A stretch of 64,000 bases of DNA, taken from the NCBI GenBank assembly GCA_030710605.1, contig CP092880.1, forward strand, positions 7,187,619 through 7,251,618. Reading direction: 5' to 3'. The position numbers and the translations under genes are program-made. This document shows, piece after piece, positions 13,663-62,018 of this stretch (position 1 is its first letter; each line of letters opens with the position of its first letter). Source of the stretch: Cordylochernes scorpioides (Eukaryota > Arthropoda > Arachnida > Pseudoscorpiones > Chernetidae). A model generated the notes under the pieces. That model saw only the letters and a program-made list of their open reading frames with translations, was not told where the DNA came from and searched no databases.

Positions 13663-13732
13663 GGCTTAATAAAAACATTGACTATACATTACAAGAAATA
13701 TTTTAAAAGAATGTATGTGCATATAGGTGGGG

Positions 13733-28748: not shown

Positions 28749-28869
28749 CTGCACACAGAGTCACCATAACTCCAGCATTATACATGATGGGATTTAGAAA
28801 ACACTCTTTAGTTGATTGTAGAATTGCGGATCATCAGACCAAGAGAACTGTTGTTGTTGTTGTTTCTTA

Positions 28870-29160: not shown

Positions 29161-29406
29161 CCATGCTCCTTTAGCTGTTTTATGATAAGCAGCAGTCTTT
29201 CCTAAAGGTCCTGTTTAGTACATCTAATGCAAACCAAAATGTGTTCTGGAACTGCAGGTGCCAAGCTACACTTTGGGCAAGTGGGTTAGATTTTGTTATT
29301 AGAGATTGTTTGTATGTATTATTGTATGTAGAGATTGTGATAAGAGAACTGGCGAAAGCAGCAGGCGAGAATTAATTAGCCATTATCATGGCCTGTACCA
29401 CGTGTA

Positions 29407-35654: not shown

Positions 35655-35714
35655 TATGTAACTCCCTTTTTAAAATTGGAGAGGAGTGGATTTCAGGAAT
35701 TGATTTAACCATGG

Positions 35715-40221: not shown

Positions 40222-40562
40222 ATACAGTAGAACCTCCATGAGAGGACACTCGCTCTAGAGGACACCTCTCCACAAAGGACAGTTTTCATTTGCAAAATTA
40301 CCATTTTTACTATTTAGCAACTCTCCGGTAAAAGGACACCTCTCCCTAAAGAAAACTTTGGCTCTTCAACTAGGTGTTGTCCTTTACAGAGAGGTAGTTC
40401 TACTGTAAGAGGACACCTCTCTCTAAAGGACACTTTGGCTCTGCAACTAGGTGTTGTCCTTTACAGAGAGGCAGTTCTACTGTAAGAGGATACTTCTCTT
40501 TAAAGGACACTTTGGCTCTGCAATTAGGTGTTGTCCTTTACAGAGAGGTTCTACTGTATCTA
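40222..40562. mobile_element. MITE, CAGTAGAACCTCC family, internally duplicated
   Basis: Left end ACAGTAGAACCTCCATGAG; right end GAGAGGTTCTACTGTA occurs three times (near 40400, 40475 and 40550) because a block of about 75 bp has been repeated. Confidence 0.75.
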
Positions 40563-42114: not shown

Positions 42115-42839
42115 CTAGCCGAATGACCCGGGCAACGCCCGGGTTTTACCCGATTAAATTTTTTTATTCAAATACTATTCGTTACAATTATAAATTGGCG
42201 CCGTGGATGTCACTCTTGTGAAACGTCCCGCTCCAAATTTGTGTCTGAGAAGCGATATTTTTTATAGAGAAATGATCTGGCTTTGTGTCTTCTGCTCGAA
42301 TGAATGTTTTTCTGTTAGAATTTTGTTTTTGCATACTAAAAATGAACTGGCTTTACCCATGGTCTCTGCTTTTTGAAAATGTTCTCGTTATAATTTTGTA
42401 TCTGATAATCAAACATGATACAGCAATATTGTCATGATCATTTTCTGAATAAAATGCAGCTATTTTTGTCCAGAACCTTTCAATTTCAAATTTTCTTGGC
42501 TAAAAATCCGATAAATATCTCTTACAGATTTTTATCTATGTCCTGTTGAAACACGTTTTACATGTACATTAGGTCAGCTGATATTCCCTCCCATTTTCAC
42601 CGCTAGAGGCGCTGCTTGCGAGCGAAAGGGCAAATTCGCAACGCAATTTGCAAATAACTCGAAAAATATTTGGGATAGAGACCTGAAATTTTCCCCTAAT
42701 TTTTTCCAGATTCTACTCTATATACTGTTAAAATTTCAGTCAGATTAGTTACGTATTGTGGACGTGTATAGCCGACATTGGAACAAACACACGTACATAC
42801 ATACATACATACATACACGGACTTTTATATATATAGGGA
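42115..42839 (-). mobile_element. Non-autonomous Helitron next to the HECT block
   Basis: CTAG complement at 42115-42118, hairpin CCCGGGCAACGCCCGGG, 5' end TCCCTATATATATAAAAGTC at 42839. Its 5' end abuts the start of the duplicated HECT block. Confidence 0.8.
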
Positions 42840-43110
42840 TAAAAAAGTTCAAAACTGAATTATTAATGTACATGAATTAATGAAAAAAAAAGACAGATTT
42901 TATTAGGAAATTCTAGGGACCAAGATTCAAATTAAAGGCGTTCTACTGTAATTAAAAAATAGATGTAAATTATTTTATTAACTATATACACATCAATTAA
43001 CTATATACACATCAATGATTTATTTTGTAAAATACATTTGGAAATACATTACTTTATATTACAAAGAAATATATTCGATTCTCTAGTCTCAAGCATTCTG
43101 TACTGGAATC

Positions 43111-45036
43111 CTAAATCAATCCAAAGCCTTCTTTATAGGAGATGGCTATCAGCAACTTCTCCTTCAGTTTAGATTTAGTAGAATATTGAGGTAGATAGAG
43201 GATTTTGGAACAGGTACTGGAGGTAGGAAGAAGTTCAGAGTTAGGTCCTGACTGATGGATTGTGAAAATGGTTCCTTCAAGAGGTATCCACTCACTTGCT
43301 GTGATAAATATCAACAAGTCATTCCGCTGAGTATCATCCATTTCTTGAACTACTTCCCAGAAATACTTCACAGCTGTACTATTGTCTGTGTAATCCATGT
43401 ATTTTATTCTCTTTTTCATATCATCTATACTTGTAAATTCGCTTCCTTTTAGTATTTCTAAAAGTTCTTCCGGCCTGAATAGCGTTTTCAGATGATCAAT
43501 CTTTATTATCTTATTGAAGCCCTTTATAATATGATGAAATTCTTTTTTAATACTCTTGTTAAATATTATATCAACATAGAGTTTAACATATTCATCCTTG
43601 TTTTTACGATTTAAAACAATTTGGGATCCATTTTTCTTTAGTTCATGGTCGATATAGGTTTCTTCTCCATTTTGAATGGTAACCAAAAAATTACATATAA
43701 AGACATCTTCAATGTCATCTTCCTCGTAATTCAGAATGTCTGTCAAACCTCTTGCCAGATTGGAGTCAAAATCAAACAGATCATCTAGAGTTCCATCTAG
43801 TCCGTACAATTTCCGGTAAAATATTTTTGGTAATTTTAAATCGACATAAACATTATGGTAAAGTGCCAAAGCAAACAATGATCCAAACCTTTCAAATCTA
43901 TCATACATAGAAGAATCCTGTTCCGTATTACTTTTCAACCAATAAAACCTGTTTTTATTGTAAAACATACTTTTTTCTTTGGTAACAATATTTTTTAAAA
44001 TGGCTGTGAAAAATTCTCTGGAAACTCCACCATAGTCATCTGCTTCTTCATTTCGAAATTTTAAACTAAGAGGTACACCTTTAGATTCAACAAATTTCTC
44101 AATCATACTGATTATATTTGTATAATCGATTTTTGAATATTCACGATGGATAATATAAGGCACAAGATACTTCATAGCTTTCATTCTTGCATTTTCTGTC
44201 CATGATAAAATCATTCCTTTAAAAGCGTCTAACTTTTGATTTAAAGGGAGAATAAATTTATAATTCAAAAGATTATCGGCGTTTGAAGCGAACAAATATT
44301 CATCAACTTCTCCTAATATTATCAATTCATAATTATTGGATAATTCATATATTAAAAATTCTTCTTTAGGAATCTTGGAATTTTTCATTTCATATATTGG
44401 ATCAAAACGCGCGTTAGGAACTCTAAAATAAAAAATAATATATCTTTTAAGATTTGATAATAGTTCAGAGTCGCCTCCAAAGACATTGGCTAAATATAAA
44501 AGTTGAAAATAATAGACCAAATCATATTGATACGTATTAAATTCTTCCATGTTTTTGAAGAGTAATTTACGCAAGTTACGTACCAATGTACTAAAGATGG
44601 GATTGCTAAGACTTATCCAATGAGAAATCAGCTTGTGAAGATATTTCAGGGGCATATTACGTGGAGGCAAAATTATTGGGGCATTCGTAAAGATTATTAA
44701 ATCAAATAAAATCGCAAAGAGATCCATGCTTTCCTCAAAATAATATTTGGAATTCTGCATTTTATCGCAGAATTTTTTATTCAAAAATCGTACTGCTTTA
44801 ATAAGAATTTTTTTCTTGGAATTGGTATCAATTGATAGCAAGAATTCTTCTAACTTCTCAACGTGGATAGCACTTCTTTCATCTGTAGAATCATAATTAA
44901 TATCGGTGAAATAAAGTTGAAGAGTCTTCAAAGAATTGAATTCAGTTTCGACAATATTGCTAAATGAATCCAGAGTTCCATTTTGAAGTGTGTGTAAATA
45001 AGTTTTGTTATTAAAAGTCTTTCTATTGAGTTTCAT
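43111..45036 (-). CDS. HECT-type E3 ubiquitin ligase, intronless, copy 1
   Basis: 641 residues, uninterrupted. The C-terminal ~370 residues form a HECT domain that resembles UBE3A: WTENARMKAMKYLVPYI, ADDYGGVSREFFTAI, YDRFERFGSLFALALYHNVY, VKYFWEVVQEMDDTQ and LLPTSSTCSKILYLPQYST. The active-site Cys is residue 609. The end YKEGFGLI is typical. HECT enzymes take ubiquitin from an E2 onto this Cys and pass it to a substrate. The N-terminal ~260 residues have no motif I recognise. Codons are strongly AT-biased, unlike GC-rich DGKE. There are no introns; AATAAA lies downstream near 42975. Origin could be transfer from an AT-rich eukaryote such as a microsporidian, a retrocopy, or an element-carried gene. 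Confidence 0.85.
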   Translation of the reverse strand: MKLNRKTFNNKTYLHTLQNGTLDSFSNIVETEFNSLKTLQLYFTDINYDSTDERSAIHVEKLEEFLLSIDTNSKKKILIKAVRFLNKKFCDKMQNSKYYFEESMDLFAILFDLIIFTNAPIILPPRNMPLKYLHKLISHWISLSNPIFSTLVRNLRKLLFKNMEEFNTYQYDLVYYFQLLYLANVFGGDSELLSNLKRYIIFYFRVPNARFDPIYEMKNSKIPKEEFLIYELSNNYELIILGEVDEYLFASNADNLLNYKFILPLNQKLDAFKGMILSWTENARMKAMKYLVPYIIHREYSKIDYTNIISMIEKFVESKGVPLSLKFRNEEADDYGGVSREFFTAILKNIVTKEKSMFYNKNRFYWLKSNTEQDSSMYDRFERFGSLFALALYHNVYVDLKLPKIFYRKLYGLDGTLDDLFDFDSNLARGLTDILNYEEDDIEDVFICNFLVTIQNGEETYIDHELKKNGSQIVLNRKNKDEYVKLYVDIIFNKSIKKEFHHIIKGFNKIIKIDHLKTLFRPEELLEILKGSEFTSIDDMKKRIKYMDYTDNSTAVKYFWEVVQEMDDTQRNDLLIFITASEWIPLEGTIFTIHQSGPNSELLPTSSTCSKILYLPQYSTKSKLKEKLLIAISYKEGFGLI

Positions 45037-45589
45037 TTTTGTAAAATTCTGCTTTTTTTCTATTTAATTTATTTTTTCTCTCGAATTTTTTAGTTATCTA
45101 ATCTTTTTTTTTTTTCAAATGAAACAAAAAAGAAAAGTGAATAGATAGTATTCAAAATATATTTCAAAGATTAATCTTTATTTATTTATTTTTTTTTTGC
45201 AGCCGATTTATTTATTAAATTTTATTTTTTAAATATATTTAAAAAGAATCATTTAATTTCAAAATTTTCTTTTAAGAATTTTTTTTTCTAGGACTCCCCA
45301 GAATTTCATTTATTTTATATCAAGCGATCAAATACCTATCATAATCGTCTGCTATAATAAACGCTAAGCGTCTATGAATTGAGAATGGTGTGCGTGTCAA
45401 TTTTGAAATTTAATTTTCTTTCTGAAAGGTATAGGAATTTAAATATAACTGATATTATTGATAATCAAATCAGCATTAAAATATATGTAACTGTCATATA
45501 TTTAAAAATAATTTCAATAAAGTTAAATACACTTTTAAAAGTTTTTATTTGAATGCACTAAAAAGTAAATAATAAAATAGTGTATCTTC

Positions 45590-45786
45590 TTTCATTAAGC
45601 AATTAGATGTATCTGAGTGAAAATAAAAGCGGCGGGGGACGATCATCATGAATTTCGAACCTAATGTGATTTAATATGTAGCAACTGATTTTTATAAGTG
45701 TTTGCTTTATTTTTACCTCTTCTTTAAATATGATCGTCCCTGCCGTTCATTTTCACTCATATACATCTAATTGCTCAATGACAGAA
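45590..45786. repeat. Upstream palindrome of HECT block 1
   Basis: GCAATTAGATGTATCTGAGTG ... GACGATCAT pairs with ATGATCGTC ... CACTCATATACATCTAATTGC across about 100 bp. It lies 550 bp upstream of the ORF start and recurs at 61696-61890. Could be a small MITE or a regulatory hairpin. Confidence 0.7.
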
Positions 45787-45864
45787 AATAATATATATAT
45801 ATTTTTTCCTTTTTAGGGAATTTAAATAGAAGTTTTTTTTTTCATATTTTATATTTATTAATTA

Positions 45865-46388
45865 CTAGCCGAATGACCCGGGCAACGCCCGGGTTTTACC
45901 CGATTAAATGTTTTTATTTAAATACTATTCGTTACAATTATAAATTGGCGGCGTGGATGTCACTCTTGTGAAACGTCCCGCTCCAAACTTTGTGTCTGAG
46001 AAGCGATATTTTTATAGAAAGATGATCTGGCTTTTGTTTTCTGCTCGAATGAATGTTTTTCTGTTAGAATTTTGTTCCTGCGTACAAAATAATGAGCTGG
46101 TTTCACCCGTGGTCTCTGCTTTTCGGAATTTTTCCCGATATAATTTTGTATCTGATAATCTTACATGATACAGCAATATCGTCATCATCATTTTCTGACT
46201 AATAATATATAGTTTTAATAATTGATTTATATATTTTTTAAAATAGCCTATCGTCTTTCCCGTATTTTTTTACCTGTGTATGGAAATTTTGGTTTGAATT
46301 AGTGAACTACTGCGAATTTGTATACCGGACATACAAACCAACAAACAAACAAACAAACATACAAACATTCATTTTTATATATATAGAG
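45865..46388 (-). mobile_element. Non-autonomous Helitron, hit by the hAT element
   Basis: CTAG complement at 45865-45868 with hairpin CCCGGGCAACGCCCGGG. The 5' end TCTATATATATAAAAATGAA is at about 46386. The hAT element inserted exactly at this 5' end. Confidence 0.75.
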
Positions 46389-48684
46389 CAGGGGTCTCCA
46401 AACTTTCCAGCCTTAGGGCCATACTGATGGGGTCTTTCCAGACTTAGGGCCATACTGATTACTCCAGTAAGTTCCGAGGGCCAAGATGGCAACACTGCAT
46501 ATTGTTAATTTTCCTGTATTAATTGTTATATTTATTTGTTATTAAATGTTATTATTAATTGTTGCTTTTGTGTGTGATTTAGCAGAATGGAAAAGAAGCG
46601 AAAAATTGATATTGAATGCAGAAAATTCAAAGATCAGTGGAACATTCAGTATTTCGTAATTGAGTCCAGTAACAAGGCGCTATGTTTGATTTGCAATGAA
46701 AGCATAGCCGTTCTCAAAGAATATAACATGAAACGTCATTATGAAACAAAACATTCTCAAAATTACTCAAAATATACAGGAATTGTGCGGACAGAAAAAT
46801 TCGAAGCTTTGAAGCGCGGATTGAAATCGCAGCAATCTTTATTTACAAAAGTCAAAACTGAACAAGAGGCGGCAACTCGTGCCAGCTTTCGTGTGGCTCT
46901 TGAAATTGCAAAACGTGGAAAACCATTCACCGATGGAGAAATGATCAAGGAATGCATAATTGCAGTAGTCGAAGAAATGTGCCCTGAAAAGGTAAATTTA
47001 TTAAAAACTGTCAGTATGTCAGCAAACACTGTGGCTCGAAGGGTAGAAAACATCGCTGAAAATATATCCTCTCAACTGTTCGACAAAAATGGACATGTTG
47101 AGTGGTTTTCTTTGGCCTTGGATGAGTCAACGGATGTGCCAGATACTGCTCAGGTGTTGATTTATATTAGAGGAGTAGATAAAAGCTATGAAGTGCACGA
47201 AGAACTTCTTGATATGTATAGTATTCATGGCACAACTACTGGTACCGATATTTTTAAAGGAGTTGAAATGGCCATTAATAAAAAGAACCTTCGATGGAAA
47301 AACTTGAAATGTATTACAACTGATGGAGGCAAAAACATGAGTGGGAAAGATAAAGGAGTGGTCGCTCTTGTGTCAAAGGCTGTAGAAAATGACGGCGGCT
47401 CAAAACCATTAGTCTTACATTGTATCATTCATCAACAGTCTTTGTGCGGAAAATGTTTGGATATGTCTGACGTTCTGAAACCAGTCATATCAACTGTTAA
47501 TTTCATCAGATCTTTTGGGCTGAATCACCGACAATTCCGACAATTTATTGCAGAGATTGGAGAAACAGACTTACCTTATCATACTGCCGTACGCTGGCTT
47601 AGTTGTGGGAAAGTCCTTCAGCGCTTTTTTGAACTTCGAGCAGTGATCGAAATTTTTTTGAATGAAAAGCACCGCCCTCTTACTGAATTACAAAACAACG
47701 CATGGCTATGGAAGTTAGCATTCTATGTTGATTTGACAAAACATGTGAACGAACTGAATTTGAGATTGCAAGGAGAAAACCAGCATCTTCCTGATTTATA
47801 CACTAATATCAAGTCATTCCGGATGAAATTGATACTGTTTCAATCACAACTACGAAGTAAATGTTTTTCACATTTTAAAACATGTGAAATATTCAGCCAC
47901 ACTACTGAGACTGAGTTTCCTATCGATTTTGCAATCGAAACTTTGAGTGCTTTGAAGATAAATTTTGATACTCGTTTCTCGGACTTTGATGCCATTGCGA
48001 ATCAAATTAAGATTTTTCAGAATCCTTTTGATGCTGACATTGAAACCCTAGCCCCGGAACTTCAAATGGAAATGATTGATCTTCAGTGCAGTGATATAAT
48101 TAAGAACAAATATGAAAACTCATCTTTGTTGGAATTTTATAAGAGTCTTCCACTGACACAATTTGATAATTTGCATAAATTTGCTCGTGGGCTGTTTTCC
48201 GTTTTTGGTACTACTTATTTGTGTGAGAAAACCTTCTCCAAAATGAAGTACACAAAAAATGTATACAGATCTAAATTAACTGACGAGCATCTTAAATCTC
48301 TTTTAATAATTGGTACAAGTAAAATTAGTCCACAACTACAAACTATTGTCGGTGGAAAATCTCAATTACATACATCTCATTAGCATTTCATATGTCATGT
48401 TTTAAGGTATGTGTTGTTCATTACTTACAATGTATAAAATGTAAGTTGGATTCATTTCAATAATTTGTTAGTTATTATATGCTGAAGTTAAATTTACTGC
48501 ATAAATTATACATGTCTTTACTCATTACCATTCTGTGTTTCTTTATCCAACTTATCACAAACATTTTATTTGCTATAAAAAATATTTGTTCTCTAAAAGG
48601 AGTTTTCAAGTATGTCTCCGCGGGCCGGACAAAATCTGTCTGCGGGCCGGATGTGGCCCTCGGGCCGTAGTTTGGAGACCCCTG
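46389..48684 (+). mobile_element. Complete hAT transposon
   Basis: Terminal inverted repeats CAGGGGTCTCCAAACT and AGTTTGGAGACCCCTG. 8-bp target duplication ATATAGAG at 46381-46388 and 48685-48692. Subterminal GGGCC-rich repeats. One intact transposase ORF. Nothing suggests decay, so it may be young. Confidence 0.95.
46587..48383 (+). CDS. hAT transposase with BED-type zinc finger, intact
   Basis: 598 residues. N-terminal BED-like finger: ALCLICNESIAVLKEYNMKR with HYETKH. RNase-H-like core: LALDESTDVPDTAQVLIYIR (first D), KCITTDGGKNMSGKDKG (second D), and LCEKTFSKMKYTKN in the C-terminal dimerisation region near the catalytic E. HTAVRWLSCGKVLQRFFEL is the family's conserved tryptophan block. 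The closest relatives by eye are the ZBED5/GTF2IRD2-like hAT group, whose host-domesticated copies are known in vertebrates. Here it sits in a full element, so it is a transposase that would cut and reinsert the element. Confidence 0.92.
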   Translation: MEKKRKIDIECRKFKDQWNIQYFVIESSNKALCLICNESIAVLKEYNMKRHYETKHSQNYSKYTGIVRTEKFEALKRGLKSQQSLFTKVKTEQEAATRASFRVALEIAKRGKPFTDGEMIKECIIAVVEEMCPEKVNLLKTVSMSANTVARRVENIAENISSQLFDKNGHVEWFSLALDESTDVPDTAQVLIYIRGVDKSYEVHEELLDMYSIHGTTTGTDIFKGVEMAINKKNLRWKNLKCITTDGGKNMSGKDKGVVALVSKAVENDGGSKPLVLHCIIHQQSLCGKCLDMSDVLKPVISTVNFIRSFGLNHRQFRQFIAEIGETDLPYHTAVRWLSCGKVLQRFFELRAVIEIFLNEKHRPLTELQNNAWLWKLAFYVDLTKHVNELNLRLQGENQHLPDLYTNIKSFRMKLILFQSQLRSKCFSHFKTCEIFSHTTETEFPIDFAIETLSALKINFDTRFSDFDAIANQIKIFQNPFDADIETLAPELQMEMIDLQCSDIIKNKYENSSLLEFYKSLPLTQFDNLHKFARGLFSVFGTTYLCEKTFSKMKYTKNVYRSKLTDEHLKSLLIIGTSKISPQLQTIVGGKSQLHTSH

Positions 48685-48693
48685 ATATAGAGG

Positions 48694-49042
48694 ATATAAT
48701 ATAAATGAGTTTTAAAAATTGTTAAAAAAAATGCATCGGCCGGGAATCGAACCCTGGCCGCCCGCGTGGCAGGCGAGCATTCTACCACTGAACCACCGAT
48801 GCTTTAAAAAAAATGGCCATATTTAGGTATTCATTCCATTCCGGATTAGTCCGCGTAAAAAAAAAAAAGTTCCTCAAATGAAAAAAAGAAATAGCCAAAA
48901 ATACTAATCAAAATGCAGCCGAAAATTTTCCTCAGGTTTATAAAAAGCGACATGCAAAATTTGGTACCAATTGGTTCAGTAGTTTTTGAGTTTATCGCGA
49001 AACAGACAGACAGACAGAAATTGACTTTTATATATATGGAGA
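48694..49042 (-). mobile_element. 5' part of the tRNA-carrying Helitron, copy 2
   Basis: Matches 3575-3913: AATATAAATGAGTTTTAAAA, the tRNA-Gly, AATGGCCATATTTAGGTATTC and the 5' end TCTCCATATATATAAAAGTC at 49042. The 3' half is replaced by the Helitron at 45865. Confidence 0.8.
48732..48802 (-). tRNA. tRNA-Gly (GCC), Helitron copy 2, one T-stem mismatch
   Basis: As 3613-3683 except that T-stem base 50 is A instead of C (minus strand CAGGG against CCCGG), giving an A-G mismatch. Anticodon GCC, box A, box B and the downstream T run are intact. Confidence 0.8.
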
Positions 49043-49163
49043 TTTAAAGTTAGTTTTTAGTCATGTGAATTTACAAAACACTTAGAATCAAAAGTTAAAA
49101 TATTATATATACGAAATCATACTGAAATATTAATTTAAGCTTTGGAAAACTGGAAAGCGTCCA

Positions 49164-49207
49164 CCTAGAGACCATGGTTTCGGGCTAATGGCCCTCGTCA
49201 ACCTAGG
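49164..49207 (-). ncRNA. Hammerhead-like motif, left arm
   Basis: Minus strand: CCTAGG, TTGACGA (first core base C changed to T), stem II GGGC/GCCC, GAAAC, CCATGG, TC, TCTAGG. Stems are perfect; the core has one change. Confidence 0.4.
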
Positions 49208-49475
49208 GCGGACTTTATTCCATGAGATCCACACGGGATCTAATGGAATCTTCACAATCTGCCAAAGAGGTGTTTAGCTGGCAAAGTGGCTGGGCCAAAT
49301 CTATGGCTAGAATATAAATGGAAATTTTGCCGGGAGGATATTGATCTGAAGAGACAAGGGTCGCCTCTCCCATCAAAATAGACATCAAAACCAGACGTGT
49401 TGCTAGCTAAACACCTCTTTGTCAGATTGTCAAGATTCCATTAGATCCCGTGTGGATCTCGTGGAATAAAGCCGC

Positions 49476-49519
49476 CCTAGGCTGATGAGGTCCATTAGCC
49501 CGAAACTATGGTCTCTAGA
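49476..49519 (+). ncRNA. Hammerhead ribozyme motif, right arm
   Basis: CCTAGG, core CTGATGA (49482-49488), stem II GGTC/GCCC with one mismatch, GAAAC (49502-49506), TATGG, cleavage after GTC (49513), TCTAGA. All core bases are present. Confidence 0.5.
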
Positions 49520-49655
49520 TGGACGCTTTTCAGTATACCAAAGCTGGTGTTGTGGCTTTGTCACCAACCCGAGGCCGCTAGTTTGCGGCGACGGTCAATA
49601 GATGGTGTCTGGTATAATAAAACTTCCTATTTTCGATCAATTCCTTTATTAAGAA

Positions 49656-50360
49656 CTAGCCGAATGACCCGGGCAACGCCCGGTTTTTACCCGATTAAAT
49701 GTTTTTATTCAAATACTATTCGTTACAATTATAAATTGGCGCCGTGGATGTCACTCTTGTGAAACGTCCCGCTCCAAATTTGTGTCTGAGAAGCGATATT
49801 TTTATTGAGAGATGATCTGGCTTCGTGTCTTCTCCTCGGATGATTTTTTTTTTCTGTTAGAATTTTGTTCCTGAATACTAAAAAGGAACTGGCTTCCCCC
49901 GTGGTCTCTGCTCTTTGGAATTTTTCCCGATATAATTTCGTATCTGATAATCAAATGATGATACAGCAATATCGTCATCATCATTTTCTGACTAAAAAAA
50001 AAACAACTATTTTTGCCCAAAACCTGTCAATTTCAAATTTTCTTGGCCAAAAATGCGACAAATATCCCTTCCATATTTTTCTCTATGTCCTGTTAAAACC
50101 CCTTTTTACATGTACATTAGGTCAGCTGATATTGCCTTCCATCTTCACCGCTAGAGGCGCTACTTGCGAGCGAAAGGGCAAATTTGCAAATAACTCGACG
50201 AATATTTGGAATAGAGACCTGGAATTTTCACTATAAGTTTTTTCAGATTCTACTCTATATACCGTTAAAATTTCAGTCAGATTAGTTACGTATTGTGGAC
50301 GTGTATAGCCGACATAGGAACAAACACACACACATACACTGACTTTTGTATATATAGGGA
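49656..50360 (-). mobile_element. Non-autonomous Helitron
   Basis: CTAG complement at 49656-49659, hairpin CCCGGGCAACGCCCGG, 5' end TCCCTATATATACAAAAGTC at 50360. Same family as 42115-42839. Confidence 0.8.
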
Positions 50361-50434
50361 TAACATTAGTTGCTGCAAATTTACATTTTTACTGTATATT
50401 TAGATTAGATGCAATAATTGTATGTAAATATATA

Positions 50435-51194
50435 TGGCAATTTAAACCAACAACCCCCTATATTGTAAACTACTTATAACAAGATTGTCATGTTGTATAT
50501 AGAAACACATCTATAAATAATTATACGCATGATTGACCTATGTCCTTGTATCACCATATGTAATGTACTTTGTACAAACTGAGGACAAATAAATAAAACT
50601 ATGTAATAGATTAAGAGCTGAGTTAAAGCAAGATTGAGAAGTTCAAAAACGTCTAAAATCGAGACAACCCTAAAGGAATTCGGCAGCCCGTTGCCATCTG
50701 GTCCAAAGGGTGCGGAATGCCGCAGACGTTTAAAGTCCAACTCCCCCCCCCCCCCCTCCTCGGGAATGGTATATAAACACCTCGGTTTTAGCCGAGCATA
50801 GTTAGTCAGCAGTCACCCCTTTCACCGTCGACGTGAGCCCTTGTCGGTCTTAGCCAGGACTATCTCATCTTCATGTAAAACAGTAAGATCTCCGCTAACT
50901 CCATCTTGCTCTTAACTCGACTCCTATCTGTTCATGGAACTTTCCTACTACAGCTGTGTCTCTTCGTTTTGTGTGTGTGGACATTCCCAAGCTTTCCACT
51001 CTGCCTCGACCACGACTGCCTGTACTCTGTGAAAACTGTTAAAGGTCTTCCAAAGTGCAGAGAGGTACTCGAAAACTCTCCACGCCCTAACTGTCCCTCT
51101 CGGTTACTACAGGTTTGACCACCGGTTACCACAGCTTATAGCGAGAGTCGACAGGATCTCATCACAGATAAGTTGACAGCAACTCTTTATCACA
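50435..51194 (+). repeat. 5' LTR of a decayed LTR retrotransposon
   Basis: Starts TGGCAATTTAAACCAACAAC, ends CTTTATCACA. It matches 57713-58464 along its length with roughly a dozen differences plus a poly-C length change. A TATA box (TATATAAAC at 50770) and a downstream AGTTAGTCAGCAGTC initiator-like region suggest a + strand promoter. Confidence 0.85.
50770..50778 (+). promoter_or_regulatory. LTR TATA box
   Basis: TATATAAAC follows a GC-rich CCTCGGGAATGG. The same box is in the other LTR at 58040. Confidence 0.6.
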
Positions 51195-54100
51195 GTTAAA
51201 GTCGACAGGATGACCACAACGAAGGAGACCACAACGAAGGAGACCACAACGAAGAAGGTAGGAAGTCTGTCCAGATAGAAGCGAGGAAGAGCAAAGATGG
51301 AGGAACAAGCCCGCCGCCATTCCACCCAAACGACCGATCAATCTCTCCCCAACAAGAGACTATATTTCAGGAGCAAGCTGTCAGCACCCCAACGACACAG
51401 CCGAAAATCCCTCAAAATAAGCCGGTGAGAAGTTTCCCCACCTTCGTCCTTACAACGCAACCACCTTCCAGGCGACATGCCGCCGTCACCAAACAGAAGT
51501 TACAAGCTTCTACAAGCTCTACTTGGAGAGTCTTCCTCGTCATCAGCAGGACAACAACCAAAGACCAAGTCTCCTGACTGAATAATAATAAAAACTGTGA
51601 GTTTTTAAAAAATCTACCTAACTCTCTCCTCATGCTCACAACTTGATTCTCCATATATTTAATGTGTATTTTCACTGTAATCATTTTAAATCAATTTTTA
51701 CCTTTTTTTTATCATTTCAATTCAAATTTTAAATAATTTACACCCACATTTATCAATTTTTACTTTATTTCAAGCAACTTATAAGTTTAAATTCATTACT
51801 TTCAATTTTACATTTAAAAAAATCATTATTTTTTATTTCACTCGAATCATAATTCTAAACTTATTTGTGTGTTTTTCTTAATATCATATTTTTATAACAA
51901 ACACCAATTTCTTAATCCTATACTCAAAACTTTGCAGAAATCATTGTTATGTTCACTATTTTATGTAAACGCCCCAGTCAAATTATAAGTCACTATCACG
52001 CCATTGCCCCTTTTACAAGGATAATTTTTACACTACCATAATCAACGATTTAAAAAATATTCAAATTTTAATAAACATAGGTGAAACGCATTTTTTTTTA
52101 ATTGCAAAAATCGAAAGATACAATATCTTCAAAATCACAACTAGAAAAGTAACTATCTTTCCCAAAACAAGTTAAAAATAAAAATCCCATCAACTACCAC
52201 GTCAGTAGCTAAATTAAGTCACAGTCTTCCAAAACTATTACAATCGTTAAATCCCAACATAGCTACACTCCCCCGTCCTTTCCTTTTACATGCATAATTA
52301 TTAATCATCCACACATCTCTCTCAACAAACTACAACACACTTCCCATCACTTTCTACAATTGGCCACCATCTATTAGCGCGCGACTTAGCAACAAATCGA
52401 ATTCGAGCAACACAAGCTCCGTCGCCACTAAACGTGCCAGATTCACTAACAACCAAGATATCTCGATGTGTTTTGTACAACCACCACTCATGACTAGTAA
52501 ATTTGTTGTTCATGATGAAACAAGTTAGATGCTGTACCAAAAACAAAGACTTCACGTGACACCTTTCCATTCAATTCACTCACTCGTGTCACACAGCGCA
52601 TCACAACAATTTTTCTCACTTAAAAGGCCACAAAGACGCCTTCATGCCTGTGACACTTCTCACCCCAAAGCGTGTCCACGTCGAAAGTCGCACTTTTACC
52701 CACATCTAAACCTGACATCATTGAATAACATTTTTACCGCAACAGCGTCGAAAGACAACATTTACGAACACCGAGAAAACTACATCTTCAAATAGACCAT
52801 AAAACTGCCAACAAGCTTTCACCACTCTCAAAGGGAGTTTAACCAGTAAACCAGTACCCTAACGTACATTCAAACCCTCAAAATTGTACTACAACAAGGA
52901 TTTCCAAAACGTCTGTTATCTGACAGAGCACTCGCTTTTACCTCAGAAAAATTCCGCAAATTTCTAATAACACACCCCATTCTGTCACAAGTTTTTCACC
53001 CACCTATTTAATGTTCAATGTTATCCCCACAGATCTAATAATTCATCTTAATCCATACCCCGAAATAACCAGAACTAGAGAGATAGCACGCTCTCTTACT
53101 CAAAATAAGCATAAAAATGGACACTAGTTAACATACTCTCGAGACACCATGCCGCGTCACCTAAATCTATCGCCACTCTTCCCCCTAACTGGCCCCCAGC
53201 CCTACATTGCCTGTCTCCTACATTCCTTTTATGTCACACTTTTTACTGCATTATCAGTCGATTTCTTAACCTAACTTTTAAACATTTAGATATTTGAATT
53301 TGAACAAGACCTTTCTTAAATTGAACATTTTTAAAATTTTGATTCCGTGTAAATCTCTAAATTTTTCTACATATCAAACATTTCACATGTTAAATTGAGA
53401 TCACAATCTTTAATTATATTCTGTTTTTTGTATAAAATATTTTATTTTTTATTTTTGCCTTTCAATTATATAATCACTAGTTATTAATCCAACATTATAT
53501 ATAAAAAAATCAATTTTATTTTTCATAATATTATTTTAGTATTACAAAAGATTTATTTGTTGTCAAAAATCACTTTAATTCTTCATTATTATTACTTTTA
53601 TATATTGATTGTTTGATTTTATCCACTTAAACTTTATTCAACCACAATGATATTGCTATATTTTTATATTTGTTTTTATACCTTTATATAAAATGACTAT
53701 GTTATCATTAACTTTCGGGCATACAACAATCTATTTCTTTAACCACTACTATCTTTCTCAACTAATGTTTCACATCATCGTAGAAAAACGATAGTACTGC
53801 TTGACAATTTTTTGATTTCGTAATTTCAACAAACTCCTTGAACATAGTTCCCCAGATTTAAAAATCCCAACTTCTGGCCTGAACACGTTTCAAAAGTTTA
53901 CTTCAATCATCCGCAGAGCACAAATCACCAACACAAACACAAAGCGTTCACAACTCACAATTTTTTTAGCTCTAGCGGACCACAATCAACCTTTGATTTT
54001 AAGTCAAGTCAGATCACCTACTGTCGCTACAATTCTACTTATCGCATGGTTCTACATTTCACCCCTTTCACAATCATATTAAGGAACAACTTGTTCTTCA

Positions 54101-54379
54101 ACAACTTTTCAACCCAATAACCCTACAATTGTGACAAAGCACTGCAACCCTTATACAGGATCACAGGTGAAACATTGCCTCGGAAGAAGCACAAGTCTAT
54201 ATCCTCGCTTTGCACCTGGATCTAAATATTTGATTACCTGTGTAATACTTACAATTGCTTATTCTTTAACCCCTAACCCTTTCCAACGCCCACCAACAAT
54301 CTCTTAGAACATGATTTTATTTTTATCAGCATTATTTTTAATCAAACAAAGGTTTTATCTTAATTTCTCTTTTATAATG
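51195..54379 (+). mobile_element. Decayed internal region of the LTR retrotransposon
   Basis: Begins after the LTR with GTTAAAGTCGACAGGATG and three 18-bp repeats of ACCACAACGAAGGAG (51216-51256). No long ORF survives. An integrase-like relic lies at 52886-53000. The region is rich in stops and AT-rich from 51600 on. It continues after the Copia insertion at 57520-57712. Confidence 0.6.
52886..53000 (+). pseudogene. Gypsy-type integrase relic
   Basis: VLQQGFPKRLLSDRALAFTS followed by EKFRKFLITH resembles the GFP..IISDRGTAFTS block around the second catalytic D of Gypsy integrases. The frame is lost on both sides. Confidence 0.55.
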
Positions 54380-54384
54380 AATAT

Positions 54385-54594
54385 TGTTGTATTCCAATTG
54401 ATTACACACAGCGCTCAACGTTAATTATACTTTAATTAACTACAGGGTAAAGGGATCATATATAGATTAAATGGTAAACATGTGGAGGAAGAGAAAAAGT
54501 CAGCGATGGCGAGACGCCGCCATGCAGGGTTGCATCAACAGGAAGTGTGACGTCGGCTCCAGCGTTACCAGGCCAACCGCCACGGCCGTCAGCA
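54385..54594 (-). repeat. Copia 3' LTR
   Basis: TGTTGTATTCC at one edge and GTCAGCA at the other. It differs from its partner by GTCGGC against GTCAGC. Confidence 0.92.
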
Positions 54595-54617
54595 ATCTCC
54601 TCCCTCGAAGTGACCTC

Positions 54618-57142
54618 CTATTCATGAATCACTTCGCCGTCCATAAGTCTCGAACGATGAAGTTCGTGTAGGTTTCTCCTCAGTGGCTTGGTCAAAATGT
54701 CCGCTAGGTTTCTTCCACTTGCTTCAAGCCAATGCTCAGCTTCAGGGCCTTGGATAGCTTCTTTATACGAAGTAGGATCTCCCTTATTTACTTCGGTACT
54801 GAGGAGTTCAGTTGAGTTCTGAGCATTTCTCTGGTTCCTTAGGATCATTGGATGAGATCGAGTAGGAGAAGGTTTCACAGTATCTTCATTATGGCTGTCC
54901 TCTTCTGTAGGTGTCACGTCTTCTTGATCTAATAAAGACACTGGATACTCTTCAATCTCCCGTTGAGTCTCATAGCTGTAGTGTTCAACTGATGGAAGCA
55001 TCTCCCGGTTGCTGTCGTTCCTCGATACATCACTCTCTTTGAAGACACAGTCCCGAGATTCCACCACTTTATTCATCTCAGGAATCCACACTCTGTAGCC
55101 ACGTCCTCTGAGTGCATATCCAACAAGGTTACCTTTGACAGCTCTCCTTTCGAGTTTGGATTTACAGACTTGTCTTGGAATATGGACAAATACTTGACAG
55201 CCAATAGCTCTTATGTGTTTAAGACTAGGCTTGTTCCCTGTCCACAGTTCATATGGCGTGCTTTCACCATTGTGATTGTTGAGAACTCTGTTTCTGACAT
55301 AGGCTGCGGTGTAAGTCAGCTCCGCCCAGGAAGCCTTTGGCAGACCACTTCCAGATATAGTGCTCCTGACAAGATCTAGGAGTGTCCTATTCATTCTTTC
55401 TGCCACACCATTCTGTTGAGGTGTATACGTCATAGTGCGTTCATGAACTATTCCGACGCTCGTGCAGAAAGTGTCCCATTCCTTGGAACAAAATTCCAAG
55501 CCATTATCCGTACGTATTCGTTTTAGTTTCCGGTTGGTTTGTTTCTCAGATTCTTGAATCCACTCTTTGAATTTTCCCAGGGTTCCGCCTTTGTTTTTCA
55601 GGAAAAATACACTTGTATATCTCGTAGATTCATCAATGATGGTTAAGACGTACTTGGCTCCTCCCCAGCTCAATACGTCGAGTGGACCCATCAAGTCCGC
55701 ATGCACCAAGTCCAACGGCATGATTTCTTTTTCCTCCTTGTGTGAGTGTTGAAGGAATGGCAGACGGTAAGACTTGCCGATCAAGCAGTCTTCGCACTTT
55801 TCTGGCTTTGCCGGGCTGCAATCAAGTCCTCTTACGCTTTGGTTCTTGGCCATCTTTGCTATCGTATATGCATTTACATGCATCAGCCTTTTGTGCCAAA
55901 GTTCCAGTGTAAGCTCTTCCTTGCATTCAGATACAAGAGAAACACGATCATTCTGATCTATCGGAGAGGATGGAGTAGTCTGGACGTAGTAAAGTCTACC
56001 CAACTTCTTTCCCTCTATCAAGAGTTTACCTTTCATGTCCATAATGTGGCAACCACTCTTGTTGAAAACAACTTTTCTACCGTTTTCTATCATTTGGAGT
56101 ACAGACAGAACACTGTGACGCATATCTGGAACATACAAGGTGTTCTGGGCAACCAAATTGCTGGCATCTCCCTTGTGTCCAACAATATTGGCACTGACAG
56201 TACCGATACCACATACTTCTATAGAAGAGCCATTCGCAATAGTGATCGAACTAATATTGCTTGCGCACTCTTTCAGACATGTGAAGTAATCTCTCTTGGG
56301 AGTCATATGGTGCGTCGCTCCAGAATCTATGATTCAGGTCTCGGCGGTAGCTCCAAACAAAGTGTTGCACATTGCCGACATATTTACGCCTTTGTTTTGG
56401 TCAAACCTCTTTGGTCTTTGTTCATTCTTTCCTTTCTTCCTGCATTCCCTTGCATAATGGCCTTTACCTCCACATTTGAAACAAACAACCTTTGCTTTAA
56501 ATTGTTTTTCTGTTTCAATGGGCTTTGAAGAGGCATTAACGACCATGGCACCCACATCTTTTGGTAGATTTGACGAACGCCTTTCTGCTTCTGCCAACAG
56601 CCGTCTTTTAACTGTGGCGGTCGTGAAGTCTGAATCAGGCAAGTTACATATGGTTGAGAAAACGGTGTCCCAATCCTCTGGTAATCCACCCAAAAGAACC
56701 ATAGCCAAATCGCCATCATCAATTTTGTCGCCAATTTGGGCCAGTTCGTTTACAATGTAGTTTATCTTCCCCATATACCCTTCCATATTGCTGTGCTGAG
56801 TCAACCTTTCGCCATATAACTGCCTTCTTAGTTGTACGGCTCGATATCTACTATCCTTTGGTGCGTATAATTTTTCCAGTTCCTCCCAGACCTCTTTCGG
56901 AGTATTCAAATGTTGAACATGCAATTGTTGTTCATCATTAATCCCGAGGCAAATTTTTGCAAACGCCTTACCCTCCCGCGACAAAAAAAAAGTTTTGTTG
57001 CAACAAGGTCACTAGGGTCAGGCTTAGCCTCTCCTGGATTGATCAAACTCCACAAATCGTTTTCGATTAGAACGAGTTTCATCTGGAAGCTCCAGCTGGA
57101 GTAATTAGCACCATTTAATTTTGTAATCGTCGTGTTTGCCAT
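54618..57142 (-). pseudogene. Copia gag-pol, RT deleted, one stop and one frameshift
   Basis: Starts MANTTITKLNGANYSSWSFQ (57142). A frameshift in an A9 run near 56985-56993 separates it from the gag body. Zinc knuckle CFKCGGKGHYARECRKKGK. An in-frame TGA (56336-56334) lies where W is expected before IIDSGATHHMT, the protease site. Integrase: HKRLMHVNAYT...CEDCLIGK, LVHADLMGP, RIRTDNGLEF and NGVAERMNRT give HHCC and DDE. After SYKEAIQGPEAEHWLEASG, the start of RT, the frame jumps to NLADILTKPLRRNLHE, the C-terminus. RT and most of RNase H are thus deleted in frame. Confidence 0.9.
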
Positions 57143-57304
57143 TTTACAAAATATTTGGTAAGTAGAAAAAGGATGTTCCAAGTAAACAAAGGAAATTTGG
57201 TTACTCACGTTTTAGGCTTTGCGCTTCTTCAGTCTGACGTTTTAAGTCTTGTGCTTCTTCAGTTTCACGTTTTAGGCCTTGCGCTTCTTCAGTCTCATAA
57301 TCTT

Positions 57305-57514
57305 TGTTGTATTCCAATTGATTACACACAGCGCTCAACGTTAATTATACTTTAATTAACTACAGGGTAAAGGGATCATATATAGATTAAATGGTAAACA
57401 TGTGGAGGAAGAGAAAAAGTCAGCGATGGCGAGACGCCGCCATGCAGGGTTGCATCAACAGGAAGTGTGACGTCAGCTCCAGCGTTACCAGGCCAACCGC
57501 CACGGCCGTCAGCA
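57305..57514 (-). repeat. Copia 5' LTR
   Basis: Partner of 54385-54594. No clear primer-binding site was recognised next to it on the minus strand. Confidence 0.92.
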
Positions 57515-57712
57515 AATATCATAACTTTTAAATGAAACATAAGTTTTATTTTTTTTATAATTTTCAGATATATCCAAACAAAAATCTTGTTATAGCCCTT
57601 GTTAACCCTCACAGTTTAAATTAATTAAAAGAAATTTTAATTACTTACCTGTGTTAGAGAGGCTTTACCCGTTTAAACCCGGATAAACTCTTTAACTCCC
57701 GGGGCTCATCTA

Positions 57713-58464
57713 TGGTAATTTAAACCAACAACCCTATATTGTATACTACTTATAACAAGATTGTCATGTTGTATATAGAAACACATCTATAAATAAGTAT
57801 ACGCATGATTGACCTATGTCCTTATATCACCATATGTAATGCACTGTGTACAAACTGAGGACAAATAAATAAAACTATGTAATAGAATAAGAGCTGAGTT
57901 AAAGCAAGATTGAGAAGTTCAAAAACGTCTAAAATCGAGACAACCCTAAAGGAATTCGGCAGCCCGTTGCCATCTGGTCCAAAGGGTGCGGAATGCCGCA
58001 GACGTTTAAAGTCCAACTCCCCCCCCTCCTCGGGAATGGTATATAAACACCTCGGTTTTAGCCGAGCATAGTTAGTCAGCAGTCACCCCTTTCACCGTCG
58101 GCGTGAGCCCTTGTCGGTCTTAGCCAGGACTATCTCATCTTCATGTAAAACAGTAAGATCTCCGCTAACTCCATCTTGCTCTTAACTCGACTCCTGTCTG
58201 TTCATGGAACTTTCCTACTACAGCTGTGTCTCTTCGTTTTGTGTGTGTGGACATTCCCAAGCTTTCCACTCTGCCTCGACCACGACTGCCTGTACTCTGT
58301 GAAAACTGTTAAAGGACTTCCAAAGTGCAGAGAGGTACTGGAAAACTCTCCACGCCCTAACTGTCCCTCTCGGTTACTACAGGTTTGACCACCGGTTACC
58401 ACAGCTTATAGCGAGAGTCGACAGGATCTCATCACAGATAAGTTGACAGCAACTCTTTATCACA
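57713..58464 (+). repeat. 3' LTR of the decayed LTR retrotransposon
   Basis: TGGTAATTTAAACCAAC to CTTTATCACA, partner of 50435-51194. A clear target duplication could not be matched (ATATA before the first LTR, TATCT after this one). A Helitron starts immediately after it. Confidence 0.85.
58040..58048 (+). promoter_or_regulatory. LTR TATA box, second LTR
   Basis: TATATAAAC in the same setting as 50770. Transcripts from here would run toward the HECT block 2 on the opposite strand. Confidence 0.55.
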
Positions 58465-58466
58465 TA

Positions 58467-58948
58467 TCTATATATATAAAAATGAATGTATGTGTGTGTG
58501 TGTGTCCTTTATGCCTGACCAAACCACTCATTGGAACGCCATGAAACTTTGGGAAGTTTTTTAGTATAGTACTGGGAAGGTTTCTAGCAAATAAAATTTT
58601 TGAAATAACTCTTCGCCTAAAAATAATCAAGATAAATATTCTAATTTATCTGTTATAAATCAACAATCTGCTCTAAATATTATCATGATGATACGATGAT
58701 TTTGTAAGTTAGAAAATTAGGAAAGACAAAATTCAGGATGACACGGCAATTTATTTGAGACAAGAATAATTATACAATTCCAAGGCAAGATACTATTCCT
58801 TTAACTTCCAATTACCGAGAGAACCAATTAATATTGATTTTATTCAACTTATCGAGTATTTTTCAAGGGACCGGGAAAAAATGTTCACTTTATCGAGAGA
58901 TTCGTTAGACAAACCTTTACTCGGGTAAAACCTGGGCGAAGCCGGGTA
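58467..58948 (+). mobile_element. Non-autonomous Helitron, 3' end incomplete
   Basis: 5' TCTATATATATAAAAATG at 58467, hairpin CTGGGCGAAGCCGGG at the other end, but CTAG is missing. Related to 40708-41261. It abuts HECT block 2. Confidence 0.65.
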
Positions 58949-59203
58949 TATATAATATAAAAAAGTTCCAAACTGAATTATTAATGTACATGAATTAATG
59001 AAAAAAAAAAGACAGATTTTATTAGGAAATTCTAGGGACCAAGAATTAAAATTAAAGATGTTCTACTGTGTAATTAAATGTAAATTATTTTATTAACTAT
59101 ATACCCATCAATGATTTATTTTGTAAAATACATTTGAAAAATTACTTTATATTACAAAGAAATATATTTGATTCTCTAGTTCCAAGCATTCTGTACGGGA
59201 ATC

Positions 59204-61129
59204 CTAAATCAATCCAAAGCCTTCTTTATAGGAGATGGCTATCAGCAACTTCTCCTTCAGTTTAGATTTAGTAGAATATTGAGGTAGAAATAGGATTTTG
59301 GAACAGGTACTGGAGGTAGGAAGAAGTTCAGAGTTAGGTCCTGACCGATGGATTGTGAAAATGGTTCCTTCAAGAGGTATCCACTCACTTGCTGTGATAA
59401 ATATCATCAAGTCATTCCGCTGAGTATCATCCATTTCTTGAAATACTTCCCAGAAATACTTCACAGTTGTACTATTGTGTGTGTAATCCATGTATTTTAT
59501 TCTCTTTTTCATATCATCTATACCTGTAAATTCGCTTCCTTTTAGTATTTCTACAAGTTCTTCCGGCCTGAATAGCGTTTTCAGATAATCAATCTTTATT
59601 ATCTTATTGAAGCCCTTTATAATATGATTAAATTCTTTTTTAATACTCTTGTTAAATATTATATCAACATAGAGTTTAGCATATTCATCCTTGTTTTTAC
59701 GATTTAAAACAATTTGGGATCCATTTTTCTTTAGTTCATGGTCGATATATGTTCCTTCTCCATTTTGAATGGTAACCAAAAAATTACATATATAGACATC
59801 TTCAATGTCATCTTCCTCGTAATTCAGAATGTCTGTCAAACCTCTTGCCAGATTGGGGTCAAAATCAAACAGATCATCTAGAGTTCCATCTAGTCCGTAC
59901 AATTTTCGGTAAAATATTTTTGGTAATTTTAAATCGACATAAACATTATGGTAAAGTGCCATTGCAAACAATGATCCAAACCTTTCGAATCTATCATACA
60001 TAGAAGAATCCTGTTCCGTATTACTTTTCAACCAATAAAACCTGTTTTTATTGTAAAACATACTTTTTTCTTTGGTAACAATATTTTTTAAAATGGCTGT
60101 GAAAAATTCTCTGGAAACTCCACCATAGTCATGTGCTTCTTCATTTCGATATTCTAAACTAAGAGGTACACCTTTAGATTCAACAAATTTCTCAATCATA
60201 CTGATTATACTGGTATAATCGATTTTTGAATGTTCACGACGGATAATATAAGGCACAAGATACTTCATAACTTTCATTCTTGCATTTTCTGTCCATGATA
60301 AAATCATCCCTTTAAAAGCGTCTAACTTTTGATTTAAAGGGAAAATAAATTTATAATTCAAAAGATTATCGGCGTTTGAATCGAACAAATAATCATCAAC
60401 TTCTGCTAATATTTCAAATTGATAATTATTGGATAATTCAGACATTAAAAATTCTTCTTTAGGAATCTTGGAATTTGTCATTTCATATATTGGATCAAAA
60501 CGCGCGTTAGGAACTCTAAAATAAAAAATAATATATCTTTTAAGATTTGATAATAGTTCAGAGTCGCCTCCAAAGACATTGGCTAAATATAAAAGTTGAA
60601 AATAATAGACCAAATCATATTGATACCTATTAAATACTCCCATGTATTTGAAGAGTAATTTACGCAAGTTACGTACCAATGTACTAAAGATGGGATTGCT
60701 AAGACTTATCCAATGAGAAATCAGCTTGTGAAGATATTTCAGGGGCATATTACGTGGAGGCAAAATTATTGAGGCATTCGTAAAGATTATTAAATCAAAT
60801 AAAATCGCAAAGAGATCCATGCTTTCCTCAAAATAATCTTTGGAATTCTTCATTTTATCGCAGAATTTTTTATTCAAAAATCGTACTGCTTTAAAAAGAA
60901 TTTTTTTCTTGGAATTGGTATCTATTGATTGCAAGAATTCTTCTAACTTCTCAACGTGGATAGCACTTCTTTCATCTGTAGAATCATAATTAATATCGGT
61001 AAAATAAAGTTGAAGAGTCTTCAAAGAATTGAATTCAGTTTCGACAATATTGCTAAATGAATCCAGAGTTCCATTTTGAAGTGTGTGTAAATAAGTTTTG
61101 TTATTAAATGTCTTTCTATTGCGTTTCAT
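59204..61129 (-). CDS. HECT-type E3 ubiquitin ligase, intronless, copy 2
   Basis: The frame is open from 61147 (MQNFTKM). The start shared with copy 1 is the ATG at 61129, giving 641 residues. Some 45 residues differ by eye (about 93% identity), spread along the whole protein. The HECT motifs are kept: HDYGGVSREFFTAI, LFAMALYHNVY, LLPTSSTCSKILFLPQYST. The active-site Cys is residue 609 from the shared start. Both copies remaining open with no stop or frameshift suggests selection or a very recent duplication. Role and origin as discussed for copy 1. Confidence 0.85.
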   Translation of the reverse strand: MKRNRKTFNNKTYLHTLQNGTLDSFSNIVETEFNSLKTLQLYFTDINYDSTDERSAIHVEKLEEFLQSIDTNSKKKILFKAVRFLNKKFCDKMKNSKDYFEESMDLFAILFDLIIFTNASIILPPRNMPLKYLHKLISHWISLSNPIFSTLVRNLRKLLFKYMGVFNRYQYDLVYYFQLLYLANVFGGDSELLSNLKRYIIFYFRVPNARFDPIYEMTNSKIPKEEFLMSELSNNYQFEILAEVDDYLFDSNADNLLNYKFIFPLNQKLDAFKGMILSWTENARMKVMKYLVPYIIRREHSKIDYTSIISMIEKFVESKGVPLSLEYRNEEAHDYGGVSREFFTAILKNIVTKEKSMFYNKNRFYWLKSNTEQDSSMYDRFERFGSLFAMALYHNVYVDLKLPKIFYRKLYGLDGTLDDLFDFDPNLARGLTDILNYEEDDIEDVYICNFLVTIQNGEGTYIDHELKKNGSQIVLNRKNKDEYAKLYVDIIFNKSIKKEFNHIIKGFNKIIKIDYLKTLFRPEELVEILKGSEFTGIDDMKKRIKYMDYTHNSTTVKYFWEVFQEMDDTQRNDLMIFITASEWIPLEGTIFTIHRSGPNSELLPTSSTCSKILFLPQYSTKSKLKEKLLIAISYKEGFGLI

Positions 61130-61695
61130 TTTTGTAAAATTCTGCATTTTTTTCTATTTAATTTATTTTATCTCTCTCTCTCTCTCTCGAATTTTTTAGT
61201 TATCTGTTTTTTTTTTTCAAATGAAACAAAAAAGAAAAGTGAATTGATAGTATTCAAAATATATTTCAATGAATAATTTTTATTTATTATTTTTTTTGCA
61301 GCAGATTTATTATTTTTAAATTTTTTTTTCTTAATTATATTAAAAAAGCGCCCTCTAATTTCAAAAATTTCAATGAAGAATTTTTTTTCCTTGTAATCCC
61401 CATAATTTTTATTTATTTTATATCAAGTGATCAAATACCTATCATAATCGTCTGCTATAATAAACGCTAAGCGTCTATGAATTGAGAATGGTGTGCGTGT
61501 CAATTTTGAAATTCAATTTTCTTTCTGAAGGGTATAGGAATTTTAATATAATTGATATTATTGATAATAAATTCAGCATTAAAATATATGTAACTGTCAT
61601 ATATTTAAAAATAATTTTAATAAAGTAAAATACATTTTTAAAAAGCTATAATTTAAATGCACTAAAAAGAAAATAATAAAATATTTTAACTTCTG

Positions 61696-61890
61696 TCATT
61701 GAGCAATTAGATGTATCTGAGTGAAAATAAAAGCAGCGGGGACGATCATCATGAATTTCAAACCTAATGTGATTTAATATGTAGCAACTGATTTTTATAA
61801 GTGTTTGCTTTATTTTTACCTCTTCTTTAAATATGATCGTCCCCCGCCACTTGTATTTTCACTCAGATACATCTAATTGCTCAAAATGAC
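61696..61890. repeat. Upstream palindrome of HECT block 2
   Basis: GAGCAATTAGATGTATCTGAG and its exact complement CTCAGATACATCTAATTGCTC lie about 150 bp apart. The outer arm of 29 bp is perfect here, better than in block 1. Confidence 0.75.
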
Positions 61891-62018
61891 AAAAGATAAA
61901 ATATTTTATTTTTTCCTTTTTAGTGAATTTAAAAAGAAGCTTTTTAAACAAAATTGTCTATTAATGAATGTAATGAATTTACAGAACTTTGAATCATAAT
62001 TTAAAATATATACGAAAT

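Follow-up and report, generated by a model that had tools for sequence, protein, structure and literature searches.

HECT enzymes take ubiquitin from an E2 onto a cysteine of their own and pass it from there to the target. To our knowledge, the fast-evolving families of ubiquitin ligases described so far belong for the most part to adaptors (F-box, MATH-BTB) or to RING proteins (TRIM), and in the nematode F-box and MATH-BTB families positive selection was reportedly found by Thomas in 2006 in the target-binding part. These nematode adaptors form large lineage-specific families of ubiquitin-ligase target receptors (PMC8665587); they serve cullin-RING ligases, whereas in the family described below the head and the catalytic domain share one protein. 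The rodent Tdpoz/Rtdpoz genes are clustered intronless retrogenes of the ubiquitin system (PMC2724483) and differ from the present family as BTB adaptors of a mammal, with a smaller cluster and germline and embryo expression. For mammalian HERC5 and HERC6 (PMC7775381, PMC4021598, PMC6002735), paralogues that recombine, changes in copy number and positive selection lying mostly outside the HECT domain have been interpreted as an antiviral arms race. HERC5/HERC6 and our family are both HECT-type ligases with recombination or copy-number change and with selection concentrated outside the HECT domain, but the former have few copies, an RCC1-like N-terminal domain and introns, and are vertebrate. 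As its title announces, Grau-Bove et al. 2013 (cited in PMC7697756) deals with HECT genes that expanded independently in several lineages.

Among solved structures, the nearest relative is UBE3A/E6AP (human; 8jrn, 8r1f, 9cht), which has the same HECT domain and catalytic Cys, aligns along the whole chain including the N-terminal helical half and occupies the same branch of the tree. The family differs from it by the absence of the AZUL domain and of coding introns, by its length (about 640 aa versus about 850-900), by a HECT identity of 36-42% (copies L001 and L002, 36% to human UBE3A and 41-42% to that of the host), by more than 100 copies and by an N-terminal half that appears to diversify. 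A literature search with most subscription journals outside its coverage yielded no paper describing an intronless family of E6AP type in animals.

The two ORFs and their surroundings

The window, i.e. the whole stretch of 64,000 nucleotides of Cordylochernes scorpioides that was analysed, contains two minus-strand ORFs separated by 16 kb, each within a copy of a duplicated block of 3.0 kb (93.9% identity between copies 1 and 2 over 3037 columns), which agrees with the arrangement reported in an earlier note made from the sequence alone. Both ORFs had been given 641 residues; this length is correct for copy 1, but copy 2 reaches 647 aa with its first ATG as start; the position corresponding to the start of copy 1 lies 6 codons further in and gives 641 aa. 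The features of the two copies are the following:

43111..45036, minus strand: ORF of copy 1, 641 aa, predicted single-exon E6AP-like HECT ligase without AZUL
59204..61147, minus strand: ORF of copy 2, 647 aa counted from the first ATG
43117..44001, minus strand: HECT domain of copy 1, residues 346-640 (Pfam PF00632, E 2.1e-74)
59210..60094, minus strand: HECT domain of copy 2, residues 352-646 (Pfam PF00632, E 5.5e-73)
43210..43212, minus strand: catalytic Cys codon of copy 1 (C609, motif SSTCSKI), from sequence reading
44074..45036, minus strand: N-terminal half of copy 1, residues 1-321, predicted mostly helical E6AP-like scaffold (AlphaFold2, Foldseek, selection tests)
42828..45838, minus strand: duplicated block of copy 1, aligned to copy 2
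58947..61945, minus strand: duplicated block of copy 2, aligned to copy 1
45533..45838, no strand: palindromic element of about 300 bp upstream of copy 1, at the block edge, a dispersed MITE-like repeat
61637..61948, no strand: palindromic element upstream of copy 2, the same repeat by sequence comparison

HECT is the sole Pfam domain in either ORF, and its profile is covered nearly full-length in both (positions 3-305 of 306). All 36 aligned relatives have Cys at the column of C609, the core HECT residues are invariant in 36 sequences whose identity goes down to about 25%, and a Thr-Cys pair close to the C terminus is present in 62 of 62 fetched ORFs, loci chosen for their completeness. The domain and active-site Cys are thus complete as first described and, on these grounds, copies 1 and 2 belong among the HECT E3 ubiquitin ligases, with a predicted activity. 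The AT bias of the codons was also recovered (GC3 0.29, versus 0.60 for the host UBE3A, measured on its large exon), and each coding frame is uninterrupted, so that the absence of introns is shown for the ORF itself, and the 5' UTR may still have some.

The surroundings of the ORFs are rich in repeats, with a hAT transposase ORF, Copia remnants and palindromic repeats, and the multi-exon host gene noticed earlier in the window proved to be a diacylglycerol kinase:

~13700-26450, plus strand: multi-exon diacylglycerol kinase gene, with C1, DAGK_cat and DAGK_acc pieces
46587-48383, plus strand: uninterrupted hAT-type transposase ORF, 598 aa, with a Spin-doc zinc finger and a hAT dimerisation domain
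54384-57515, minus strand: Copia-type gag and integrase remnants (Pfam, self-comparison)
3613-3683 and 48732-48802, minus strand: two tRNA-Gly (GCC) predictions, perhaps real genes or tRNA-derived repeats
5321-6140, 11118-11844, 22001-22980, 28852-29180, 31009-31974, 35275-35657 and 40328-40549: elements made up internally of repeats of about 73-136 bp, with short palindromes in several of them

Segments 54384-54595 and 57304-57515 match at 99.5% and are probably the two LTRs of a Copia element.

The palindrome upstream of copy 1 is common by descent to copies L002-L004. The possibility that this hairpin represents a shared promoter or a transposon end was rejected after a genome search (3035 first-look candidates, the best 40 places at 87-91% or better): it is an independent dispersed repeat and not a device of the gene. 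One proposal is that the gene is cargo or part of a mobile element moving as a 3-kb unit. Such a unit would account for the homology between the pairs of copies at 7.2 Mb and 18.6 Mb, which ends at nearly equal points beside the palindromic repeat; in four close copies, likewise, homology stops near the same points, at the palindrome upstream and shortly past the stop codon. However, the palindrome is dispersed without the gene, the block encloses no transposase, neither terminal repeats nor target-site duplications were seen at its ends, the more distant copies have only the coding region in common, and the copies are clustered and not scattered. We therefore regard transport by a mobile element, one of the origins suggested by the earlier note, as highly improbable; the shared ends could reflect an old duplication unit trimmed by later insertions.

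Descent from the UBE3A/E6AP lineage and number of copies

The N-terminal half, first taken as novel, finds a known fold. An AlphaFold2 model of copy 1 (36-row alignment, mean pLDDT 82.8, pTM 0.79) is almost wholly helical in this half, and the best Foldseek matches are full-length E6AP complexed with E6, over 687-698 columns (top match 8jrn_A: E 1.4e-28, TM-score 0.70, 693 columns, rmsd 8.5). Since the match involves full-length E6AP, the N half is, according to this model, a diverged E6AP scaffold without AZUL and not a new domain, so that an E6AP-type scaffold and a HECT domain are predicted in one chain.

The genome (2.62 Gb, 24 contigs) is that of an arthropod by its cuticle-protein domains (PF00379, at least 150 matches scored from 333 candidates). 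Hemocyanin_M (PF00372) gave no match among 5 candidates and mollusc hemocyanin (PF14830) none among 2, blanks that do not prove absence, although the host may be an arachnid that lacks hemocyanin. The AZUL domain (PF16558) has one match in this genome, at C1:29.064 Mb. It marks the host UBE3A, a minus-strand gene of C1 that reaches about 29.041 Mb. The gene comprises an AZUL exon, one large exon and no fewer than five exons that carry HECT pieces; the position of one exon was not found. Transposase frames, presumably Mariner-like, were observed on the minus strand within this region (L073). The family copies are separate genes outside the host UBE3A; Pfam gives HECT alone and no AZUL in copies 1 and 2, and the parental introns are absent, the copies having in one frame what the host has in at least five exon pieces. 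Another locus, L031 (C23:52.627 Mb), encodes 725 aa in a single frame without AZUL, matches solved UBE3A from residue 145 to the end (E 1e-201) and has a HECT part 66% identical to that of the host UBE3A; by these features L031 is a recognisable UBE3A retrocopy, and with a GC3 of 0.25 it is equally AT-rich at third positions.

A HECT-domain tree was computed with IQ-TREE from 19 family copies, L031 and two UBE3A proteins, with SMURF-like and HUWE1-like outgroups. The 19 copies, L031 and the two UBE3A form one group (support 100), in which UBE3A and L031 split off at 72 and the remaining copies come together at 93. The family consequently branches beside UBE3A and not inside it; this places it on the UBE3A/E6AP branch, as far as a tree with long branches and without HECTD2 can tell. 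HECTD2 is a near paralogue of UBE3A and may be the parent instead. Neither a poly(A) tract nor a target-site duplication, features whose loss is expected in old copies, was seen at the block ends. Among the three origins offered by the earlier note, a retrocopy still under selection comes nearest: introns are absent, the branch is that of UBE3A, the catalytic residues are kept and the HECT half is constrained, and from these traits we infer the retroposition itself.

Horizontal transfer, for example from a microsporidian donor, had been proposed on account of the low GC3 of the intronless ORFs, and several microsporidia are indeed AT-rich. However, the host's own retrocopy L031 is similarly AT-rich, the position in the HECT tree is on the UBE3A branch, and the fold is that of full-length E6AP. 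Furthermore, animal UBE3A is the closest of the solved relatives (199.6 bits), far above the Nematocida HUWE1 chains (110.8 and 106.5 bits), the only microsporidian HECTs compared. Limited scans with two peptide patterns each gave 40 pattern matches in IMG/VR and 31 in GTDB, none of which was confirmed as a relative. With more than 100 copies on 14 contigs and UBE3A as nearest solved relative, horizontal transfer is unsupported; we consider it disfavoured to the point of being very improbable.

The copy count suggested by the earlier note revealed a large family. Copy 1 as query gave at least 69 scored matches from 281 candidates, and the HECT model at least 130 (129 scored, 283 candidates), both numbers being lower bounds. 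Seven of the 130 HECT rows were dropped: L030 for its C2 and WW domains, C2:70060913 as interrupted (not fetched), two rows at C2:69.89 Mb (L072), and L069, L070 and L071, which are other HECT genes by sequence reading. Among the matches listed, 123 loci thus remain for the single-frame, intronless family, although some of the unfetched rows may be exons that belong to further HECT genes. In 86 of these 123 loci the HECT match sits in an open frame of 560 codons or more without stop, the other 37 listed loci being short or interrupted. By reading of the listings, about 8 extra places come from a class-B query and about 4 from copy 1. The 123 loci are spread over 14 of the 24 contigs and lie mostly in local clusters, since linkage at 1.5 Mb assigns 109 of them to 22 groups with at least two members each. 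At C1:25.17-25.21 Mb, tandem class-B HECT copies with a 6.6-kb period and equal scores suggest a very recent amplification or an assembly effect. The fetched set comprises 62 loci, picked for completeness, with single-frame HECT ORFs of 566-725 aa, and includes L030 (C2:118.305 Mb, 971-3115, plus strand). The latter is a SMURF/NEDD4-like C2-WW-HECT protein of 714 aa in one open frame, an unusual state, since such a gene is normally interrupted by introns.

Selection on the two halves and gene conversion

Across 31 pairs analysed by NG86, the N half exceeds the HECT half in dN/dS for most of the recent ones. When 13 independent recent pairs were pooled, the N half showed 476 non-synonymous and 102 synonymous changes (pN/pS 1.24), an excess over neutrality that is borderline (p 0.052), whereas the HECT half showed 153 and 75 (ratio 0.56, p 7e-5); the difference between the halves is clear (Fisher odds ratio 2.29, p 5e-6). 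Mean omega is 0.73-1.88 in the N half, significantly above 1 in 4 of 7 clades (the 0.73 of clade B1 is not significantly below 1), and 0.35-0.96 in the HECT half, significantly below 1 in 4 of 7.

Site models M1a and M2a were compared with our own implementation, not PAML or HyPhy. For the whole gene, p is below 0.01 in 7 of 8 clades, and a posterior above 0.9 is reached by 80 of 2347 codons of the N half, against 12 of 2555 for HECT. Fitted alone, the N half gives p < 0.05 in all 7 clades and the HECT half in 3 of 7 (A1, A2, B1), which indicates that selection also reaches beyond the N half. Tests of this type can give inflated results under gene conversion; triplets, each having one possible unrooted tree, lessen this effect without removing it, and 23 of 24 N-half triplets exceed 5.99. 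Among 16 data sets simulated under the null (7 + 9), none exceeds this value (maximum 1.8). Selected sites of the sister clades A1 and A2 agree within one residue in 12 of 26 cases (4.3 expected, p 0.016), and none of the other 9 clade comparisons shows a significant agreement. Taken together, the N half of recent copies appears to be under diversifying selection, with the HECT half more constrained.

Synonymous difference between copy pairs was also scanned in windows of 64 codons. Between L022 and L027, it stays at 0.35-0.64 in each window as far as the one at codon 325 and drops to 0.02-0.03 in the three windows from codon 389. The comparison of L022 with L060 repeats this pattern, although L027 and L060 are sisters; weaker drops occur in L022/L026 and L038/L043, and no drop was found in L001/L005 and L034/L041. 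Because constraint on amino acids cannot lower synonymous change in this way, we read this homogenisation of the catalytic end as conversion or recent exchange, and in one cluster the HECT-domain end looks homogenised by gene conversion.

The two copies of the window are themselves less informative. Their clade, A4, has four copies; there the site test over the whole gene does not reach significance (p 0.25), and the N half alone gives an uncorrected p of 0.043; the HECT half of the pair has a dN/dS of 0.89 (18 versus 5 changes), with no visible constraint, so the selection signal of this pair is weak. The expectation that the ORFs are still under selection, for which the earlier note proposed Ka/Ks between the copies, is borne out by the HECT half in the pooled family pairs and not by the window pair, whose dN/dS is 1.05. 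The latter value would fit ordinary retrocopies drifting after duplication under relaxed constraint, in which high N-half rates mean lost function and intact frames are merely young; the 37 of 123 listed loci that are short or interrupted and the 3 of 7 clades in which mean HECT omega is not significantly below 1 point in the same direction. However, relaxed constraint yields no class of sites above 1 and does not explain a two-fold difference between halves of the same gene, and the Thr-Cys pair (in ORFs picked for completeness) and the HECT core are retained throughout the sequences compared. We consequently hold drift to be rather unlikely.

A putative repertoire of ligases with diversifying heads

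We consider it fairly probable that these loci are a host family of intronless HECT ligases from the UBE3A/E6AP lineage, forming a repertoire whose target-binding heads diversify to track changing targets. A repertoire of ligases is the most likely outcome of an N half that diversifies, a HECT half that is constrained and conversion at the HECT end. An E6AP messenger would most likely have been reverse-copied long ago, with loss of the introns and of AZUL; its later multiplication was due mainly to local duplication of DNA, as the clustered and tandem copies show. Judging from its conserved residues, the working-looking HECT domain is predicted to accept ubiquitin on its Cys from an E2 and transfer it to a target, which the E6AP-like helical half would bind by analogy with E6AP. 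This N half would diversify while the HECT half stays more constrained, its end being apparently kept alike by conversion in at least one cluster. The copies are presumably expressed, and conflict is probably the driver of head diversification, candidate targets being proteins of parasites, viruses or selfish elements.

The opponent may nevertheless be of another kind, since sequence evidence for conflict is silent about it. The copies may be specific to germline or gametes and subject to meiotic drive, toxin-antidote or dosage conflict, as rodent Tdpoz clusters, and not serve infection defence; clustered intronless copies of a ubiquitin-ligase gene do resemble the rat Rtdpoz cluster (PMC2724483). 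We regard this as possible but doubtful. Alternatively, the head could change to avoid a parasite or virus factor that seizes it. Papillomavirus E6 contacts the N-terminal part of human E6AP, and the best fold matches are solved E6AP-E6 complexes. Escape from such hijacking would account for the fast change but not for the retention of more than 100 copies, and we give it little credence.

The unexpected part is what appears to be fast evolution of the N half beside a more constant catalytic half, as in an arms race. Tentatively, we suggest that the more than 100 self-contained ligases might constitute an E6AP-derived multigene recognition system, with interchangeable heads and a catalytic tail kept by conversion, diversifying under attack and possibly taking part in cell-intrinsic immunity. 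If the repertoire reading is true, the family would amount to hundreds of natural variants of a single E6AP surface, from which the positions that set target choice could be read; and, since the scaffold is the one exploited by papillomavirus E6 in humans, it would point to an unknown arthropod antagonist.
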